Shown here: piece by piece, positions 1-8,165 of the stretch | Position numbering within the stretch: position 1 is the first letter of the stretch | Layout of the letters: every line of letters begins with the position of its first letter | Source: Nitrospina sp. | GTDB lineage: Bacteria > Nitrospinota > Nitrospinia > Nitrospinales > VA-1 | Direction of reading: 5' to 3' | NCBI GenBank assembly: GCA_018647025.1 | Contig: JABGTQ010000198.1 | Span: forward strand, 1 to 8,547 | DNA length: 8,547 bases | Made by a program: the position numbers and the translations under genes | Notes under the pieces: generated by a model | Seen by the model: only the letters and a program-made list of their open reading frames with translations | Told to the model about the DNA's origin: nothing | The model's database searches: none

Positions 1-159
1 AAAAAAATTTCTTATGAAATAGACGGAATGCCTGAGCAGTTAATGATACGTATCCCAGAAAAATTTCCCCATGGTGGAAAATTAAGAATCAAAGGTAAGG
101 GACACTCTAAAGATAAAAAAAGAGGTGATCTGATACTTCAAGTTAAAGTAAGTCACTAA
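1..159 (+). CDS. DnaJ/CbpA-type chaperone, C-terminal fragment (5' end outside window)
   Basis: Reading frame 1 is open from the window edge to TAA at 157-159 and gives the last 52 residues of a protein. The visible segment contains IRIPEKFPHGGKLRIKGKG followed by a GDLILQVKV end. This is the signature of the second C-terminal substrate-binding beta-barrel of DnaJ/Hsp40 proteins, where a P-x-G-x-x-x-G-x-x-L-R-I-K-G-K-G strand pair is followed by RGDLIV-V-V. In that family the domain binds unfolded clients and delivers them to DnaK/Hsp70. The J domain and any zinc-finger region lie outside the window, so I cannot tell DnaJ from CbpA or a more divergent Hsp40. It ends soon after the barrel, as CbpA-like proteins do. 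The next gene starts 64 bp downstream on the same strand. Confidence 0.8.
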   Translation, partial: KKISYEIDGMPEQLMIRIPEKFPHGGKLRIKGKGHSKDKKRGDLILQVKVSH

Positions 160-1071: not shown

Positions 1072-2187
1072 TTAAGTCAGTTTTTTTATTTGTTCTACAA
1101 TTTGGCTACTATTTCCCAACCAATCAAAACGCTTCTTAGCCATATAGACTATATGGTCAATAGAGGCTAGGACTAGTTTGTTTTCAGGGTTTAAAATTGG
1201 CTTTTCATTAGTTGCTTTTTGAATACCCAAAATCTCTACAGGAAGATTAAGCTGAGTAGCTGCAATCTTTAAACATCCAAAGCTAAAATTCTGCGCATTC
1301 TCTCCCCAAGAACCCACTTTAGAATGGCTGATATAAATCTGATTCCCTCCCGAATTAGACGATAACTCACTATAGACTTTATATATTCCAGGATCTTCCA
1401 ATTCCTGAACTAAAAGTCCCATTTGCAAATCAGTGGTACTGATACCTCCATCAATGCCAAAAGTACTCAGGTTTCCCAAAGTTTCAGAGCGACTACAGGT
1501 CATAACTGTGATTACTTGCGGCCAGTTTTTTTCGATGAGGCCTGCTGTGAGAGTATTGGTATCATCCAACGCAGGATCGGAAGCTGCAGAAGTAAAAACG
1601 CAAGCTTTAGCCTGACCCGCGTTCGCCCGCTCCAAAGTTTCCAAAGCTGAAGGTAGGCCCATAATAAATGTACCTATTTTTTGAGATAAAAAACTAGGTA
1701 TTTCCCTGTCGTTATTAGGTAAATGTGAGGCTACCAAGACCCGAGGGATATGTTTGTAATCAGGGCTGTAGTCTAGTTCTTTCATTAATTCCATTGTCTC
1801 TGAATAGGATGGGACATTAACAATTAACAAGTGTCCTGTACCAGTATGTTTACCTTCGCCTTTCATTTTTTTTAATCTCCTTTGCATGGCCCGTTCTAGA
1901 ATAATTCCTGTCAATATACCGAAGCAACCTATACCCAGCATGGATGTCAAAACAGTGACCCATCGCCCCTGAGGAGTAGCTGCAGAAACATCCCCATATC
2001 CAATCGTTGTTAATGTAATATAAGCGGTCCAAAGGCCATCTAAGAATGTCACATTCTTTTCGTAGGCTGACATTACAAACGCAAAAACTAATATCATTAA
2101 AAAAAAGACCGCACCCAAAACAATCAATATTCGAATTTCAGGTTGACTGAGTTTTTTGAGAATGCGTTTAAAAAAATAAAAATGCAT
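1072..2187 (-). CDS. Two-TM potassium channel with cytoplasmic RCK-like domain
   Basis: Inner-membrane K+ channel of 371 residues. TM1 is about residues 20-41, a pore helix follows (about 48-60), the selectivity filter TIGYGD is at 61-66, and TM2 is about 76-97. The filter matches the K+ channel consensus exactly, so K+ selectivity is well supported. The basic linker (RRLKKMK) leads to a cytoplasmic region from about 117 onward resembling a TrkA-N/RCK Rossmann fold, then a C-terminal segment (about 280-355) reminiscent of TrkA-C. The first Rossmann strand, GHLLIVNVPSYSE, lacks the G-x-G-x-x-G nucleotide-binding loop, so NAD or ATP binding by the classical mode is doubtful. The start at 2187 gives a basic N-terminus before TM1; only a weak ribosome site is visible. 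Transcribed divergently from the lipoprotein-DUF350-SpeE operon. Related channels occur with PspA/DUF350 genes in other bacteria (from memory). Confidence 0.9.
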   Translation of the reverse strand: MHFYFFKRILKKLSQPEIRILIVLGAVFFLMILVFAFVMSAYEKNVTFLDGLWTAYITLTTIGYGDVSAATPQGRWVTVLTSMLGIGCFGILTGIILERAMQRRLKKMKGEGKHTGTGHLLIVNVPSYSETMELMKELDYSPDYKHIPRVLVASHLPNNDREIPSFLSQKIGTFIMGLPSALETLERANAGQAKACVFTSAASDPALDDTNTLTAGLIEKNWPQVITVMTCSRSETLGNLSTFGIDGGISTTDLQMGLLVQELEDPGIYKVYSELSSNSGGNQIYISHSKVGSWGENAQNFSFGCLKIAATQLNLPVEILGIQKATNEKPILNPENKLVLASIDHIVYMAKKRFDWLGNSSQIVEQIKKLT

Positions 2188-2286: not shown

Positions 2287-2393
2287 TAACGGAGCTGATA
2301 TGATAACTGTGTTAATCTAAGTCTGTTGCAAAAATAATTCTAAAACTTTGTTAATTGTCTAAAAATGAATTCGAGGAAATTTTAATTAAGTCT

Positions 2394-3101
2394 ATGCTAT
2401 TACTCAGAGCAAAATTAATTTTTTTTCTTTGCATTTTTTCTCCAGTTGTTTTTCTTTTACAAGGCTGTGGAGTTGGGCAGAACCCAATAGAGAAAATTCA
2501 ACGCGAACTGCAAGACCAAAAAGAATACACTATTATTCTTAATGATATGCGTGAAGAAGGCAACTTCTTTCCTTCCTATTACCACCAATACCGAATTGAT
2601 ATTGGAGATCAAAAAATTCAGCGACCTTTCATCGAAGTAGATGAATCAATATACAAAAAAAATGAACCCTATTTAGGCATGGCTTTATCAGGTAAAACAG
2701 CTGATGGTGTAGTCACTAATACCCCCTTTCCCAACGGATATCAATATGTAGGGAATCCTCAATATGGTACCTGGAGAGAAAATGACCGTGGAGGTAGCAT
2801 GTGGGAGTTTTATGGGAAATATATGTTGATGTCGCAGGTGATGAATTGGGCTGGATTCGGTCTTCAACGTAATCATTATAACGACTATTCGTCTTTCAGA
2901 GGCAGAGGACAACCTTATTACGGACCAAATCGGCAATATGGAACCGCCGGAACGGTGACACAAAAACAGAAACCTGATTTCTTTAAAAGAAAAATGGCGA
3001 AGAAATCTCGATCTCAAAACCGGTTTCAAAATAAAGTCGGCCAACGTATGGGTCGCAGTAAAAATACCTTTAGAAATCGTGGCTTCAGTTTTGGTAAATA
3101 A
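2394..3101 (+). CDS. Lipoprotein with conserved GNPQYGTW motif and basic C-terminal tail
   Basis: Predicted outer- or inner-membrane lipoprotein, 235 residues from the ATG at 2394. This start yields a classic signal peptide: Arg/Lys near the N-terminus, hydrophobic core, then lipobox LLQGC with Cys25 as the lipidation site. An in-frame TTG at 2355 would add 13 residues ahead of the signal peptide and is less likely. GAGG at 2373-2376 is rather far (17 nt) from the ATG. After the lipid anchor comes an alpha/beta-looking segment (about 45-85), then YVGNPQYGTWRENDRGG and MWEFYGKY (about 118-143), an aromatic/Arg/Gly-rich low-complexity part, and a 45-residue tail with many Lys/Arg but few acids. 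I recall similar proteins next to DUF350 genes, but no function. It is two bases from the DUF350 start and so is the first gene of that operon. Positionally it matches DUF4247 or DUF1190 proteins of related loci; homology is not shown. Confidence 0.8.
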   Translation: MLLLRAKLIFFLCIFSPVVFLLQGCGVGQNPIEKIQRELQDQKEYTIILNDMREEGNFFPSYYHQYRIDIGDQKIQRPFIEVDESIYKKNEPYLGMALSGKTADGVVTNTPFPNGYQYVGNPQYGTWRENDRGGSMWEFYGKYMLMSQVMNWAGFGLQRNHYNDYSSFRGRGQPYYGPNRQYGTAGTVTQKQKPDFFKRKMAKKSRSQNRFQNKVGQRMGRSKNTFRNRGFSFGK

Positions 3102-3103
3102 CT

Positions 3104-3949
3104 ATGAACCTTGATCATTTTTTATCTTCATTAACATACCTGGGCTCTTGCTTCGCTATACTTGCTGTTGGACATTGGGTATTTATTTTATTCCGCAGAA
3201 GTTATGCTATTCAATCTGAGTTGGTTGAAAAAGATAATGCTGCCTTTGCCCTCGTTCTTTGTGGTTATTATCTAGGATTGACCTTTTCTATTGGTGGAGT
3301 AATTGTCGGGCCTTCTACAGGACTAGAGAATGACTTAATAGACATGCTTGTTTATGGTCCTTTAGCAATAATTCTACTTAACTTGTCAGCATTGATTAAT
3401 GATCGTTTTATTCTTAGTGAGTTTAATATTAAAAAAGAAATACTGCAGGATCAAAATTGCGGCACAGGGGTTATAGAATTCGCTATTTTTATTGCCACAG
3501 GGCTCAATATTTTTGGTGCGTTATACGGTTTGGGCGGATCTATGGTTACAGCCGTTGTGTTTTGGTTTATAGGACAGATCGTTTTGATATTGGCGAGCAA
3601 ATATTACAACTTAATCACACAATATAATATTCACGAACAGATTGAAAATGACAATGTTGCTGTAGGAATAGGTTTTGCCGGAGCGTTAATTGCCATTGGT
3701 AACTTGTTGCGTGCAGCTTCAGCAGAAAATTTTATTTCCTGGCAAGATAATTTAACGACATTTATTATTTTTATAGGGATTGGAATCATCCTACTGCCCG
3801 TTATCAGAATGTTAACAGACCGTATTCTTTTGCCGGGACGTAGCCTGTCTGATGAGTTGGTTAATCAAGTAAAACCGAACCAAGGGGCCGCTTTTTTAGA
3901 AGCCTCTTCCTACATAGGCTCCTCTTTTCTTATCACTTGGTGCATTTGA
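3104..3949 (+). CDS. DUF350 (YjfL-like) membrane protein, duplicated form
   Basis: Polytopic inner-membrane protein of 281 residues, about eight TM segments. It shows a four-times repeated half-unit in which an acidic/Asn-rich turn precedes a Gly/Ala-rich helix: EKDNAAFALVLCGYYLG from 42, DQNCGTGVIEFAIFIATG from 116, ENDNVAVGIGFAGALIAIG from 181, and NQGAAFLEASSYIGSS from 259. The E. coli YjfL/DUF350 protein (about 132 aa) carries two such half-units, so this is a tandem duplication, as is usual in many non-enterobacterial members. Function is unknown; a channel-like or membrane-lipid-interacting role has been guessed for the family. The ATG follows the lipoprotein stop by two bases and its own ribosome site is weak, which suggests translational coupling. 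The aminopropyltransferase-like gene starts 24 bp downstream, or overlaps more closely if a TTG start is used. Confidence 0.88.
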   Translation: MNLDHFLSSLTYLGSCFAILAVGHWVFILFRRSYAIQSELVEKDNAAFALVLCGYYLGLTFSIGGVIVGPSTGLENDLIDMLVYGPLAIILLNLSALINDRFILSEFNIKKEILQDQNCGTGVIEFAIFIATGLNIFGALYGLGGSMVTAVVFWFIGQIVLILASKYYNLITQYNIHEQIENDNVAVGIGFAGALIAIGNLLRAASAENFISWQDNLTTFIIFIGIGIILLPVIRMLTDRILLPGRSLSDELVNQVKPNQGAAFLEASSYIGSSFLITWCI

Positions 3950-3973
3950 TTTTTGTTAGGGCACCATCAATTC

Positions 3974-5551
3974 ATGTCGTCACCCCAAATAAAGAGTTCT
4001 GAAAAACTCAAACTTCAACGCCTAAGCTTTATCTTAAAGACCTGTATCTTTGCTACCGGGTGCGCCGCAATCGTGACTGAGTATACTCTAGCTACCTTGG
4101 CCAGCTACTTATTAGGGGATTCCATCCTTCAATGGACAATAGTGATATCTCTTATGTTGTTTTCTATGGGATTGGGAAGCCGCTATAGCCGAAAATACGA
4201 AGACTCATTGTTAAACCGTTTTATATTAATTGAGTTTGGCCTATCGTTTCTTTGTACTTTTTCTGCAATGTTCTGTTTTTGGATTTCAGCCTATACTATT
4301 CACTTTGGATTAGTGGTTTATAGTCTCGTTTGTATGATCGGGTTTATGACTGGGCTTGAAATTCCTTTAATTATGAGGATCAACCAAACTTATGAATCGT
4401 TAAGGGAAAATATTTCATCGGTCATGGAATATGATTACTACGGTGGGTTGTTGGGTGGAGCATTATTTGCCTTTGTTTTGCTTCCTTTTCTTGGTCTAAC
4501 TTACACTCCCGTTCTCATCGGCAGCCTTAATTTACTAGTCGCTTCATTAGTCCTATGGAACTTTTCCAAACATTTGATACGGCCTCGCATTCTTAACATA
4601 CAATTCGCAGTCCTTCTTATAATTTCAGTGCTAGCATTTTCTGTTGCTAAACCTATTGTTCTGTACGGCGAGCAACATAAATATAAAGATAAAATTATTT
4701 ACCAAGAGCAAACTCGCTACCAAAAAATTGTGGTCACTCAATGGAAAGAAAATTTTTGGTTATTCATTAATGGGAGCACACAATTTAGTACTTACGATGA
4801 AGAAAGGTATCATGAGCCTCTGGTACACCCTGTGATGAGTTTGATAAAAGAACATAAAGACATTCTACTTCTAGGAGCAGGCGACGGTTTAGCCGCCAGA
4901 GAAATTCTAAAGTACCCTGATGTAGAAAGTCTTACTCTAGTGGATCTAGATCCTGCGATGACTCGCTTAGCCCGACAGCACAAAATGTTTCTTGAAATCA
5001 ACCAAGGATCGCTCAATGATCCTCGTGTTCAAGTATTTAACAAAGATGCTTATCAATTCATGAAAGAGTCATCTGATTTATACGATGCCATTATAATAGA
5101 CCTCCCCGACCCTAAATCAGTTTCCTTGTCACTACTATATTCACTTGGTTTTTATAAGATGGTTGAAAAACACCTCAAACCTTTTGGGGCTATGGTCACT
5201 CAAAGTACCAGCCCCTTATATTCTCCCGAGGCTTTTCTTTGCATAAAAAAAACAATACAGGCTGCTAATTTTTCGACCCTACCTTATCAGAATTCGGTAC
5301 CAAGCATGGGTCAGTGGGGTTGGGTACTTGGCATACGTAAAAAAACAATGCCTGCTAAGCGGCTTAAGCAAAAAATAATAGAACAAAAATTATCAGATAT
5401 TGAGACACGTTTTTTTAATCAGAATGCAATGATATCCATGGCATATTTCGGCAAGGGATTGTTTGAGAAAGAGGGGAAAATTGAACCTAACACTCAGTTC
5501 AATCACAATATTTTGAAGTATTATCAACAGGGAAGTTGGGATTTATATTAA
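3974..5551 (+). CDS. Membrane-anchored spermidine synthase-like aminopropyltransferase
   Basis: 525 residues from the ATG at 3974. An in-frame TTG at 3953 would add seven residues (LGHHQF) and is less convincing. About seven TM segments occupy residues 19-225, followed by a cytosolic spermidine-synthase-fold domain: TRYQKIVV (247-254, the YQ motif), NGSTQFSTYDEERYHEPLVHP (substrate-site loop, from 267), GAGDG (301-305, decarboxylated-SAM/SAM loop), LVDLDP (322-327) and DAIIIDLPDP (371-380, with the catalytic-type Asp). All landmarks of SpeE are in order, with Asp in place of the usual Glu after LV and DLPDP where DSTDP is typical. So the catalytic core looks intact but the acceptor may not be putrescine. 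In the family, decarboxylated SAM donates an aminopropyl group; no SAM decarboxylase is visible here. Last gene of the plus operon; convergent with the DUF4178 gene 31 bp away. Confidence 0.88.
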   Translation: MSSPQIKSSEKLKLQRLSFILKTCIFATGCAAIVTEYTLATLASYLLGDSILQWTIVISLMLFSMGLGSRYSRKYEDSLLNRFILIEFGLSFLCTFSAMFCFWISAYTIHFGLVVYSLVCMIGFMTGLEIPLIMRINQTYESLRENISSVMEYDYYGGLLGGALFAFVLLPFLGLTYTPVLIGSLNLLVASLVLWNFSKHLIRPRILNIQFAVLLIISVLAFSVAKPIVLYGEQHKYKDKIIYQEQTRYQKIVVTQWKENFWLFINGSTQFSTYDEERYHEPLVHPVMSLIKEHKDILLLGAGDGLAAREILKYPDVESLTLVDLDPAMTRLARQHKMFLEINQGSLNDPRVQVFNKDAYQFMKESSDLYDAIIIDLPDPKSVSLSLLYSLGFYKMVEKHLKPFGAMVTQSTSPLYSPEAFLCIKKTIQAANFSTLPYQNSVPSMGQWGWVLGIRKKTMPAKRLKQKIIEQKLSDIETRFFNQNAMISMAYFGKGLFEKEGKIEPNTQFNHNILKYYQQGSWDLY

Positions 5552-5582: not shown

Positions 5583-6134
5583 TCACTCACTGGGTAGGAT
5601 ATTGGTAAATTGAAACTCCTCAACCATAGTCCCGAGTTGCATATCAAATTTTTTTTCGCCCCATTGCTCAATGGTCAAAAATTGTTTCCCCTGTTCATCC
5701 GAATAGTCCCAAGAAACAAAACTAAGCCCTTCCTCTGAACCGTCACGAAAAAACTCACCGATATCGTCTTCCTCAAAATGGAATGTTTCACCTTTCAACA
5801 CAACTTTTTCAGGGGGGTCTTCATTTCGAACGATTTCTCCAGCGATATCGCCTTCCAACTCAGAAATAGACAGTTTATGACAAAAACTCCATTCAACTTC
5901 ACCATCCTCCTCGGAGCGTTCTAAAAAAAATGTTTCGCTTCCAGAAGTCAACTCCCATTCATCGGAGACTCCACCCTCGTTCCACTGATAGTTATTACAT
6001 GCAGAAACCCTATAGGTTTTTAAGTCGTAATCAACCAAAAAACCGACTTTAAGTTTACTGAGCACAAGATCTTCAATACGAAATTCTTCTTTTTGAAGTT
6101 CATCTTTTTTATTTTTAAAAAAATCGAAAACCAT
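5583..6134 (-). CDS. DUF4178 domain protein
   Basis: Soluble acidic protein of 183 residues, matching what I remember of DUF4178: LKVGFLVDYDLKTYRV near 28-43, then DEWELTSG and FLERSEEDGEVEW in the middle, EDPPEKV..GETFHF, and a C-terminal YSDEQGKQFLTIEQWGEKKF stretch. The pattern is an all-beta domain with conserved Trp/Asp/Glu positions. No signal peptide or TM segment is seen, so it is presumably cytoplasmic, perhaps peripheral to the membrane. Function is unknown; the family is repeatedly found with PspA, DUF350 and SpeE-like genes. The start lies two bases after the PspA stop codon with a poor ribosome site, pointing to translational coupling. Last gene of the minus operon; no hairpin terminator follows. 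Confidence 0.85.
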   Translation of the reverse strand: MVFDFFKNKKDELQKEEFRIEDLVLSKLKVGFLVDYDLKTYRVSACNNYQWNEGGVSDEWELTSGSETFFLERSEEDGEVEWSFCHKLSISELEGDIAGEIVRNEDPPEKVVLKGETFHFEEDDIGEFFRDGSEEGLSFVSWDYSDEQGKQFLTIEQWGEKKFDMQLGTMVEEFQFTNILPSE

Positions 6135-6136
6135 GA

Positions 6137-6847
6137 TTACTTAATATTCATTTTGGCTTTAAGTGCAGCAAGACTATCGGAAACACCTGGCATTGAGGAA
6201 CCTTCACCTAAAGCTTTATTAATTTGATCATCTACACTTTGCCCTGAATCAGCCATATCACCATAGGCTTGAGATAAGGATTCATCTTCTTCAACTTTGT
6301 CTCGCATTTTTTCAAGCATGGCTATGGTGCTATCGGATCCAACACGAGCAATTTGGGCATTTAATTTTTTTGTTGCAGCAGCTGTTTTAGAACGAGCACG
6401 TAAAGTGACAAGGTCATTCTCATAAGTCTGAATAGTCGTCCTTAGTTTTTCAACGTTTCGTTGCAATTGAAGAACCATGCTTTCCTGGGAGGTCACCTCT
6501 TTACTGAGTCGAAGAGCTTCTTTTCCTGCAACCTCTTTGCGTGAAAGAACATCGGTTGCCAATCTCTCTGCCTCAGAAGTATCCAGTGAACCTTGCTCGG
6601 CTTTTTGTAATAAAGCCATCGCCTTACTTTCATAGTCGGCGGCGAGCTTTTTTTTATTTTCCGCATCATTTCTCATGCGAATAACAATACTTTTCACTTG
6701 AGCCAGGCTTTTCATGGATTCTTCTAAATCTTTTTTGAGCTCACGTATGCCCTGCTCAGTCATTTTGATAGGGTCTTCAAACTTGTCCACTGCTGAATGT
6801 GCCTCCGCTTTACCTAGCCGCAGTATCCTTGTAAACAATCCATTCAT
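6137..6847 (-). CDS. PspA/IM30 (Vipp1) family membrane-stress protein
   Basis: 236 residues, nearly all predicted coiled-coil helix. An N-terminal amphipathic helix (NGLFTRILRLGKAEAHSAV) precedes the conserved DPIKMTEQGIRELKKDLE segment (about 24-41). Helical hairpin heptads run to about 160, and the end has VDDQINKALGEG and a final SLAALKAKM helix as in Vipp1/YjfJ-type members. Family members are ESCRT-III-like proteins that polymerise on damaged or stressed inner membrane. I chose the ATG at 6847 rather than the one six bases upstream (6853): GGAG at plus-strand 6856-6859 sits 8 nt from it, and the protein then starts M-N-G-L-F as typical members do. It follows the YbjN-like gene by 26 bp and precedes DUF4178 by two bases. 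It resembles E. coli YjfJ more than PspA proper by gene context (no PspB/C/F here). Confidence 0.93.
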   Translation of the reverse strand: MNGLFTRILRLGKAEAHSAVDKFEDPIKMTEQGIRELKKDLEESMKSLAQVKSIVIRMRNDAENKKKLAADYESKAMALLQKAEQGSLDTSEAERLATDVLSRKEVAGKEALRLSKEVTSQESMVLQLQRNVEKLRTTIQTYENDLVTLRARSKTAAATKKLNAQIARVGSDSTIAMLEKMRDKVEEDESLSQAYGDMADSGQSVDDQINKALGEGSSMPGVSDSLAALKAKMNIK

Positions 6848-6853
6848 TTTCAT

Positions 6854-6873: not shown

Positions 6874-7266
6874 TTAACCATTTGTAAAGGAAACCAGTTC
6901 GCTGGCGTATTCAGCCAATGCAAGACTCAATGCATCAATGCTTCCTTCTAGTTCATTTCGATCTAGGTTTTCTGTTTGCAGAGTATCTCTAAATAGCAGT
7001 GTTGTACCTTCTTCATCAAGAACAAAAGCCCCGTGAACCAAGGTACGATTGATTTGAAGAATACGTTTACAGAAATCAGCTGAATTCTGGGGCATCGGTA
7101 TGATGACTTGCTCAAGAATTAGAATAGGAGACTCACAATCTATCACCAGATTATTAATTCCTCGTTCATCATCATTTATAACAACTAACTCTTCCTTAGT
7201 ATCCTCATGGCTTATGGAGAACCCCATATCCATTATAAAACTTTTTACTTTGTCAAAATCAGACAT
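6874..7266 (-). CDS. YbjN / type III secretion chaperone (CesT-like) fold protein
   Basis: 130-residue soluble acidic protein. An opening helix (about 3-14) leads to ELVVINDDERGINNLVIDCESPILILEQVI strands (from 26), then helix NSADFCKRILQINRTLVHGAF (61-81), strands FVLDEEGTTLLFRDTL, and a closing helix NELEGSIDALSLALAEYASEL. This strand-helix arrangement with the N-R-x-L-V-H-G-A-F motif is what I associate with YbjN/CesT-like proteins found with PspA. The E. coli yjf operon has YjfI (DUF2170) at the equivalent place upstream of the PspA homologue. The members may act as small chaperones or adaptors, but the client is unknown; PspA is the natural guess from gene order. Translation is well supported: AGGAGAT at plus-strand 7271-7277 is 4 to 6 nt from the ATG. 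It is 12 bp downstream of the J-domain gene. Confidence 0.75.
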   Translation of the reverse strand: MSDFDKVKSFIMDMGFSISHEDTKEELVVINDDERGINNLVIDCESPILILEQVIIPMPQNSADFCKRILQINRTLVHGAFVLDEEGTTLLFRDTLQTENLDRNELEGSIDALSLALAEYASELVSFTNG

Positions 7267-7278: not shown

Positions 7279-7629
7279 TTACTTTTTTAAAAATTCAGAA
7301 CTTAGAACGCGATATGCTTCATTTAATTGGCGTGTAAGGTTTTCAGCAATCATTTTTTTTTCTGGGTCAGAACAATGAAGATCTGGATGGTATTTTTTCA
7401 ACTGGCTTTTCCAAGCATTTTTAATAATTGTCTGATCGGACCCAACAGGTATTTCTAGATTAGCATAATATTTGGCTAAAGGATCGGGGGCAGAAAAATT
7501 ATCTTTACACTCCGACTGTTCCTGAAAGTTAATTGTTTTATCAGACGACGAATAGTTTTCAAAAAATTTATTCTTCAGCACAAAATCATTAAATTCGGCT
7601 TTAGCAATTTTCAGAATACGTTTAATCAT
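7279..7629 (-). CDS. Small J-domain co-chaperone with PspA-like N-terminal helix
   Basis: 116-residue Hsp40-type protein with the J domain at its C-terminus (about 53-114): KYYANLEIPVGSDQTIIKNAWK (helix I/II), KKYHPDLH with the HPD triad at 81-83, then LTRQLNEAYRVLSS (helix III). HPD is required to stimulate Hsp70 ATPase, so it is likely functional. It lacks the Gly/Phe region, zinc finger and substrate barrels. Residues 1-17 (MIKRILKIAKAEFNDFV) have the basic/hydrophobic pattern of PspA/Vipp1 helix 0 and resemble the RILRLGKAE of the PspA encoded here. Residues 23-50 are a polar linker. The family is known to act in trans on Hsp70; membrane or PspA targeting by the N-helix is my inference. 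The start ATG overlaps the upstream TGA (ATGA), giving coupling without an own ribosome site. Confidence 0.9.
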   Translation of the reverse strand: MIKRILKIAKAEFNDFVLKNKFFENYSSSDKTINFQEQSECKDNFSAPDPLAKYYANLEIPVGSDQTIIKNAWKSQLKKYHPDLHCSDPEKKMIAENLTRQLNEAYRVLSSEFLKK

Positions 7630-8165
7630 TTTACTATGGATAAACTAGGTAATTCAATATTGGTTGAACTTATAATAGAAATACCGATTTCCGGGTATGT
7701 GTGAACAGTATAAAAGGTATTTGTTTCCGAGCTTAAGACCAAACCGGTAAAAGGCAATGGTACCTCATAGTCTTCCGAACTAGCAGTAAACACATGAGTC
7801 AATGTATCTGAAAGAGAAACATCACCCAAAAAACCAGTGTAGTCATCCATAGCATTAAAAATCTGGGAAACATGTTCAACATTAACTCGATACTTTAGGT
7901 CCCCATATTGATATTCCTGGTTATGAATGATACCCGGTTTTAAACATTTAGATTCCAACGAGTTTTCAGGTAAATTATGATCAAAACAGGTAATAAATTC
8001 GGTGAGACAGTCACTTCCTTTACGACTTATCACTCGATGGCTCTTACCAATTATACTAACTTTAAGTGTCACTCCATTACTGAGAGCCCAATCAACACTT
8101 TGAAATATTCGCACAAAGTAATCTGGGGTTTGCTGGTAAAGACTAAAGTAGATTGATTTACTCAT
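7626..8165 (-). CDS. DUF2617-like protein of unknown function
   Basis: 179-residue soluble protein, first gene of the minus operon. Landmarks: KVSIIGKSHRVISRKGSDCLTEFITCF (from 35), a middle segment YGDLKYRVNVEH (87-98), and near the C-terminus FYTVHTYPEIGISIISSTN (151-169). The G-x-SH-x-V, L-T-E-x-x-x-C and H-x-YPE-x-G patterns agree with what I remember of DUF2617 (a W/T-x-H-x-YP-x-x-G end), so I call it DUF2617-like with moderate confidence. Biochemical function is unknown. No signal peptide or TM segment is seen. Its stop TGA overlaps the J-domain start. No Shine-Dalgarno precedes the ATG at 8165; a hairpin lies in the presumed 5' leader. Confidence 0.7.
   Translation of the reverse strand: MSKSIYFSLYQQTPDYFVRIFQSVDWALSNGVTLKVSIIGKSHRVISRKGSDCLTEFITCFDHNLPENSLESKCLKPGIIHNQEYQYGDLKYRVNVEHVSQIFNAMDDYTGFLGDVSLSDTLTHVFTASSEDYEVPLPFTGLVLSSETNTFYTVHTYPEIGISIISSTNIELPSLSIVK

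Follow-up and report, generated by a model that had tools for sequence, protein, structure and literature searches.

A J-domain protein with a PspA/Vipp1-type helix 0, encoded beside pspA in Nitrospinota, as a candidate co-chaperone of PspA polymers

The stretch of DNA analysed here (the window, 8,547 nucleotides from a Nitrospina draft genome of 1.82 Mb that is 71.5% complete) encodes a small J protein whose predicted N-terminal helix resembles helix 0 of PspA/Vipp1 proteins and whose gene adjoins those of a CesT/Tir-like chaperone and of PspA itself. Given that this helix matches the membrane helix of the PspA family, we propose that the J protein brings DnaK to PspA coats: it would recruit DnaK to PspA polymers on the stressed membrane, where the ATP cycle of DnaK would dismantle them, a reading to which we assign a probability of about one half.

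Gene block and architecture of the J protein

The genes and protein segments on which the analysis is based are located in the window as follows.

7279..7629, minus strand: J protein gene, 116 aa (ORF; helix 0, linker and J domain)
7564..7629, minus strand: predicted N-terminal amphipathic helix of the J protein, residues 1-22 (profile test, resampling, hydrophobic moment, AlphaFold2)
7477..7563, minus strand: variable linker, residues 23-51, predicted disordered (pLDDT and column conservation)
7294..7473, minus strand: J domain, residues 53-112 (Pfam PF00226, E 1.3e-10)
7381..7389, minus strand: HPD motif, residues 81-83 (sequence; codons 7389..7381)
7626..8165, minus strand: DUF2617 protein, first gene of the block (PF10936, 30.5 bits versus 22.3)
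6874..7266, minus strand: CesT/Tir-like chaperone (PF22550, 168.6 bits)
6137..6853, minus strand: PspA, PspA_IM30 family (PF04012, 152.1 bits; PDB matches to Vipp1/PspA)
6782..6838, minus strand: PspA helix 0, residues 6-24, aligned with J protein residues 1-19 (sequence)
5583..6134, minus strand: DUF4178 protein, last minus-strand gene of the block (PF13785)
3953..5551, plus strand: membrane spermidine-synthase-like protein (NCBIfam PRK03612, 582.5 bits versus a cut-off of 472)
3104..3949, plus strand: DUF350 membrane protein (PF03994)
2355..3101, plus strand: putative lipoprotein (LQGC near the N-terminus; matched near the block in several relatives)
1072..2187, minus strand: potassium channel (PF07885)

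Five minus-strand genes thus follow each other head to tail in the order DUF2617, J, CesT/Tir-like, PspA and DUF4178. The DUF2617 gene overlaps the J start codon by four bases (ATGA), and the remaining gaps measure 12 (J/CesT), 20 (CesT/PspA) and 2 bases (PspA/DUF4178), a spacing so tight that we predict a single operon for all five. A σ54 promoter drives the psp operon of E. coli; the 13 matches to a σ54 promoter pattern in the window, each with 3 mismatches, compare with 11.1 expected and were rejected as candidates, and scans of the window for σ70 promoters and terminators gave nothing above expectation. On the opposite strand, the putative lipoprotein, which may be of the Ctha_1186 type, reached no family above its cut-off. 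The left edge of the window (positions 1-159, plus strand) cuts into another DnaJ-type protein, of which the C-terminal 52 residues (DnaJ_C, PF01556) are included. The full gene is present in G048 (L211:4181-5032), where it encodes 283 aa with a J-domain-like start that includes HPD and precedes a relative of the membrane protein encoded at 224-916 of the window; in G027 it was not recognised among the ORFs listed around the operon. A motif scan for DnaK in the fetched stretches matched only in L194, which belongs to another genome.

The J protein (ORF 7629..7279, minus strand) begins with MIKRILKIAKAEFNDFV and matches the Pfam J domain with 41.6 bits against a cut-off of 27.8. Its sole further Pfam match, RAD24_helical, stays below its cut-off, and no PF04012 match, that is, no PspA_IM30 core, was found at E up to 1. 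Like class C (type III) J-domain proteins, the J protein combines a J domain and HPD with no zinc-finger or DnaJ_C match in Pfam; unlike them, it carries a PspA-type helix 0 and a linker ahead of the J domain. AlphaFold2, run with 58 sequences, predicts helices at residues 2-22, 52-57, 66-80, 82-85 and 89-115, of which 66-80 and 89-115 flank the HPD motif. The J domain is predicted with confidence, helix 2-22 at low to middling confidence (block means of pLDDT, 62 and 48), and residues 16-47 have pLDDT values below 50. The top Foldseek matches of the predicted protein are J domains, including the DnaK-bound one in 5nro, all at E >0.001; nothing was returned at E ≤0.001.

Conservation among orthologues follows the same division. 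Across 64 genomes of the order, the J protein has 25 strong matches (E <1e-20), and in all 25 of these M1 and R4 are unchanged. The mean fraction of the commonest residue per column is 0.77 for residues 1-12, 0.70 for 1-17, 0.37 for 18-49 and 0.77 for 50-112, and HPD is kept in 58 of 58 aligned J sequences. As judged from these columns, the N-terminal helix and the J domain are held and the linker between them drifts. The preliminary description of this DNA had divided the protein into an N-terminal helix, a linker and a C-terminal J domain with intact HPD, and had expected the N-terminal pattern to recur in orthologues; the domain match and the conservation profile bear out both.

Comparison of the N-terminal helix with helix 0 of PspA and Vipp1

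The PspA of the same block contains RILRLGKAE at residues 9-17, and a gapless alignment of J protein residues 1-19 with PspA residues 6-24 gives 8 identities in 19 positions. For a quantitative comparison, 46 helix-0 stretches of PspA/Vipp1 proteins, including two taken from solved structures of Vipp1, were combined into a 17-column profile. The first test profile used 20 of the 46 and left out the PspA proteins of Nitrospinota, and a further one contained Vipp1-type helices only. As controls, we took 684 mechanically called ORFs (≥100 aa) from an 800-kb portion of a relative assembled as one contig, scoring each control N-terminus also at every Met within the first 60 residues. Residues 1-17 of the J protein reached 18.3 bits on the first profile, compared with a control maximum of 4.5, and none of 100,000 shuffles of its N-terminus attained this score; on the Vipp1-type profile it scored 15.2 bits against a control maximum of 3.9. 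The resemblance to helix 0 and to the RILRLGKAE stretch that had originally been noticed from the sequence alone therefore stands.

A more demanding control, in which residues are resampled within their own class, asks for more than amphipathicity. Here, 16 of 4,000 resamplings were at or above the score of the window protein on the first profile and 73 of 4,000 on the Vipp1-type profile. Among 11 J sequences put through this test, 7 fell below 1 in 100 with the first profile (L009, G064, G123 and G308 missed it) and 5 with the Vipp1-type profile, the window protein itself being one of the 6 that missed. We also scored 33 J N-termini, namely the 25 orthologues and 8 wider relatives. With the first profile, 27 of these outscore the whole control set, 6 do not, and none of the 33 falls outside the top 1%. 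The Vipp1-type profile puts 30 ahead of the whole control set and 32 within the top 1%, P0142 being outscored by 54 controls. The J proteins of G064 and G123, the most divergent pair linked to pspA, score 3.7 and 3.4 bits, under the best two controls, and both fail at 1 in 100 when residues are resampled within their class, whichever profile is used.

The hydrophobic moment, which had been put forward as a check, gave a divided answer. Its value for residues 1-18 of the window protein (0.50) is PspA-like, close to the mean of the 25 orthologues (0.55) and to the 46 PspA/Vipp1 helices (0.52). Control N-termini average 0.22 with a 95th percentile of 0.44, which 24 of the 25 orthologues exceed; this percentile rises to 0.51 when the best of 8 offsets is taken, so that the moment by itself is not decisive. 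Taken together, the profile scores place the helix-0 match of the J N-terminus beyond chance and, for the window protein, also beyond plain amphipathicity. With respect to the PspA/IM30 family and the ESCRT-III superfamily to which PspA and Vipp1 belong, the J protein thus has the sequence pattern of helix 0 and, unlike PspA and Vipp1, lacks the core domain.

Linkage to pspA within and beyond Nitrospinota

The 77 Nitrospinota genomes include 26 in which J is matched over its full length, 30 with CesT_Tir_1 and 29 with PspA above the cut-off. The survey of J genes near pspA that the preliminary description had called for gave a clear result: J directly adjoins CesT-PspA in 25 of the 26 J genomes, and in the 26th (G036) the contig stops within CesT. 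Four genomes have PspA and no J match. In two of these (G038 and G059; L106 and L107) the contig stops at CesT, where J would be expected, and the other two (G065 and G066, of another family) have a divergent CesT-PspA pair with no adjoining J. Neither J nor PspA above the cut-off was found in 47 of the 77 genomes, one of which (G072) has a PspA match below it. The hypergeometric P value for co-occurrence is 5e-15 when relatedness is ignored. Restricting the set to the 31 genomes that are ≥90% complete and ≤5% contaminated leaves 12 with both genes, 1 with J only (G036, the contig end), 1 with PspA only (G065) and 17 with neither. J and PspA therefore appear and vanish together, even inside single genera; since many of these genomes are drafts, some absences are assembly gaps and genes may be hidden. 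As to the remaining neighbours, two of the 25 loci (L027 and L028) and G064 lack a DUF2617 match next to J, and the surroundings of J in L109 and L111 (19 and 18 kb) contain no DUF350 or synthase match. In G064 (L103:8229-9263), a potassium channel gene ends 2 bases ahead of J in the same orientation.

A profile of 25 J sequences (A1) was run on 387 genomes, of which 310 lie outside Nitrospinota. It matched proteins of G180, G308, G170 and G378 along the greater part of the sequence and one of G123 in the J domain. G123 belongs to another phylum and has J, CesT and PspA in the order of the window, with a DUF2617 match upstream. A wider profile (A2) includes the J proteins of G123, G180 and G308, whose retrieval is thus by construction; its matches span helix and J domain in 7 of the 310 genomes (G123, G180, G308, G170, G378, G296 and G173), two of which (G308 and G170) are of the same genus. 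CesT_Tir_1 is found in 6 of these 7 genomes versus 24 of the 310 overall (P 8e-7), and PspA in all 7, the base rate having been counted for CesT_Tir_1 only. In the six genomes other than G123, the fetched surroundings of the J gene contain no PspA match, and PspA lies elsewhere in all six. On the first helix-0 profile, G180 scores 20.6 bits, G173 13.6, and G308 and G170 about 2. The N-terminus of G296 was rejected as a helix 0 (3.0 bits, reached by 2 of 684 controls; -6.0 on the Vipp1-type profile), and that of G387 was left uncounted, as its start codon was not found. The J protein of G173 (L206:2569-2994) starts with MGYLTRRISILLKSNLNHWIDK, close to a Vipp1-type helix 0 (21.5 bits on the Vipp1-type profile), and its gene lies on a separate contig from the CesT-PspA pair of that genome. 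The phyla of G123, G180 and G308 are represented by only 1, 2 and 5 genomes, so that linkage is not countable there.

Viewed from CesT, stretches from 17 of the 24 CesT genomes outside Nitrospinota were examined (G123 and 16 others), the remaining 7 having weak CesT scores. G128 has no PspA match near its CesT. Besides that of G123, all 15 CesT-PspA pairs (L179-L193) are without such a J gene in the fetched stretch, some of which are short contigs, and five of the 15 come from genomes that have J elsewhere. The pair can thus do without J. We regard the J protein as an optional partner of PspA whose gene belongs to the pspA block in Nitrospinota and G123.

Database searches extend this picture. 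A wider protein search returned 2,920 matches; among the matches listed, 95 of 120 have an N-terminus above every control, a share that is biased upward because the query contained the helix, and the names include Calditrichaceae, Candidatus Tectimicrobiota and Gemmatimonadetes. The corresponding figures are 120 of 120 for the proteins of the first search and 13 of 28 for those first found with the G064 protein. One match, P0164, shares its first eight residues, MAGIFQRL, with the PspA of G123. Three further matches of about 165 residues (P0153, P0160 and P0256) seemingly have tandem J domains and no helix 0, among matches that mostly do have it. A plasmid search with the J protein of G064 (rather than that of the window) as query gave no match to it; three PspA matches were obtained, and a Hymenobacter plasmid carries a CesT-PspA pair with no J annotated within the 16.7 kb viewed. 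Proteins of this kind are accordingly more widespread than had been assumed at the outset, with similar ones located away from pspA in several phyla.

Proposed function, alternatives and relation to known systems

J domains act on Hsp70 via HPD. In the mechanism that we propose, helix 0 of the J protein would draw it to the stressed membrane patches of PspA or to the PspA coat itself. Tethered by a linker of about 30 residues, the J domain could then contact DnaK and, through HPD, would set off the hydrolysis of ATP, whereupon DnaK would pull on PspA as its substrate until the polymers come apart. PspA would have a second chaperone in the CesT/Tir-like protein, one that works without ATP. Co-assembly of the J protein with PspA, the other route suggested in the preliminary description, is the least likely variant and finds no support, since the polymer-forming PspA_IM30 core is absent from the J protein. 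Several reports on related systems provide the setting for this proposal. Helix 0 of Vipp1/PspA is described as binding the membrane inside the polymer (PMC8281802, PMC10602608), HSP70B-CDJ2-CGE1 as both assembling and disassembling VIPP1, with E. coli DnaK able to stand in for HSP70B (PMC10602608, PMC6882379), and Synechocystis Vipp1 as associating with DnaK2 and DnaK3 (PMC4297356). A 2026 review calls the regulation of polymerisation and disassembly on and off membranes unclear and states that chaperones appear to be involved (PMC13051332).

The alternative that survives best, although we consider it unlikely, is that the helix serves membrane targeting only, so that the J protein would bring DnaK to damaged patches for the benefit of misfolded proteins, working alongside PspA without having it as a client. 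The description of helix 0 in PspA/Vipp1 as a membrane-binding element (PMC8281802, PMC10602608) and the J relatives encoded away from pspA would both fit this explanation; against it, the J gene adjoins CesT-PspA in G123 and in every Nitrospinota J genome except the one interrupted by a contig end, which points to PspA or CesT as the partner. Less probable still is that the J protein works for a different product of the nearby genes, be it the CesT/Tir-like chaperone, DUF2617, DUF4178 or the DUF350/spermidine-synthase membrane complex. The overlap with the DUF2617 gene, the 12 bases to CesT and the DUF2617 match upstream of J in G123 speak in its favour, yet DUF2617 is missing beside J in L027, L028 and G064, the DUF350/synthase genes around J of L109 and L111, and the J helix resembles PspA and none of the DUF2617, CesT, DUF4178 or DUF350/synthase proteins. 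It is very improbable that the J protein uses its helix to enter or cap the PspA lattice in a structural role without DnaK. The N-terminal helices are reported to stand in columns in Vipp1 baskets (PMC10602608), among which a foreign helix 0 could fit, but the invariant HPD argues for use of DnaK and the polymerising core is missing. A generic amphipathic helix that resembles PspA by chance deserves equally little credence: the low scores of some divergent members and the misses at 1 in 100 in the class-preserving test (4 of 11 on the first profile; 6 of 11, window protein included, on the Vipp1-type profile) are outweighed by a window score that no control or shuffle and only 16 of 4,000 resamplings attained, and by the high share of top-scoring N-termini listed in the wider search, whose query contained the helix.

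By function rather than by sequence, the proposed recruitment of DnaK to PspA would liken the J protein to CDJ2 in the CDJ2/HSP70B/CGE1 system of Chlamydomonas chloroplasts, where a J protein is devoted to a member of the PspA/Vipp1 family. Unlike CDJ2, it has its J domain at the C-terminus behind a PspA-type helix 0, and its gene adjoins pspA in bacteria; CDJ2 itself reportedly has no cyanobacterial homologue (PMC3720927). The gene block in turn resembles an operon class described by Ravi et al. in 2024, in which CesT/Tir-PspA occurs with a 7TM spermidine synthase, DUF350, a lipoprotein and DUF4178 (PMC11237479): the window has adjacent CesT/Tir and PspA genes and DUF4178, plus DUF350 and PRK03612 on the opposite strand. 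Unlike that class as described, the block of the window carries the J protein and DUF2617 alongside CesT/Tir-PspA, and neither "DnaJ" nor "J-domain" occurs in the main text of PMC11237479. The same source places DUF2617 in a variant without the CesT/Tir-PspA pair, which it accompanies in the window. Among the titles and abstract openings of the open-licence papers listed, none describes a J protein of bacteria that carries a PspA helix, or a pspA operon that includes a J gene. Chloroplasts already provide a J protein dedicated to a PspA/Vipp1 polymer; the present design and its bacterial gene block appear to be new.

It is tempting to speculate, if only tentatively, that a whole bacterial class of J proteins borrowed helix 0 from PspA and, together with DnaK, would form the ATP-driven disassembly arm of bacterial ESCRT-III. 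This role would be analogous to that of Vps4, the ATPase that remodels ESCRT-III polymers at the membrane, with the difference that the ATPase would here be DnaK, recruited via the J protein. A J protein with helix 0 beside pspA may answer how PspA coats, which have no ATPase of their own, get recycled, a question that its PspA-type helix and its linkage to pspA make testable with four purified proteins. If the proposal is true, the J protein would be a co-chaperone that locates its client by sharing the client's own targeting helix.
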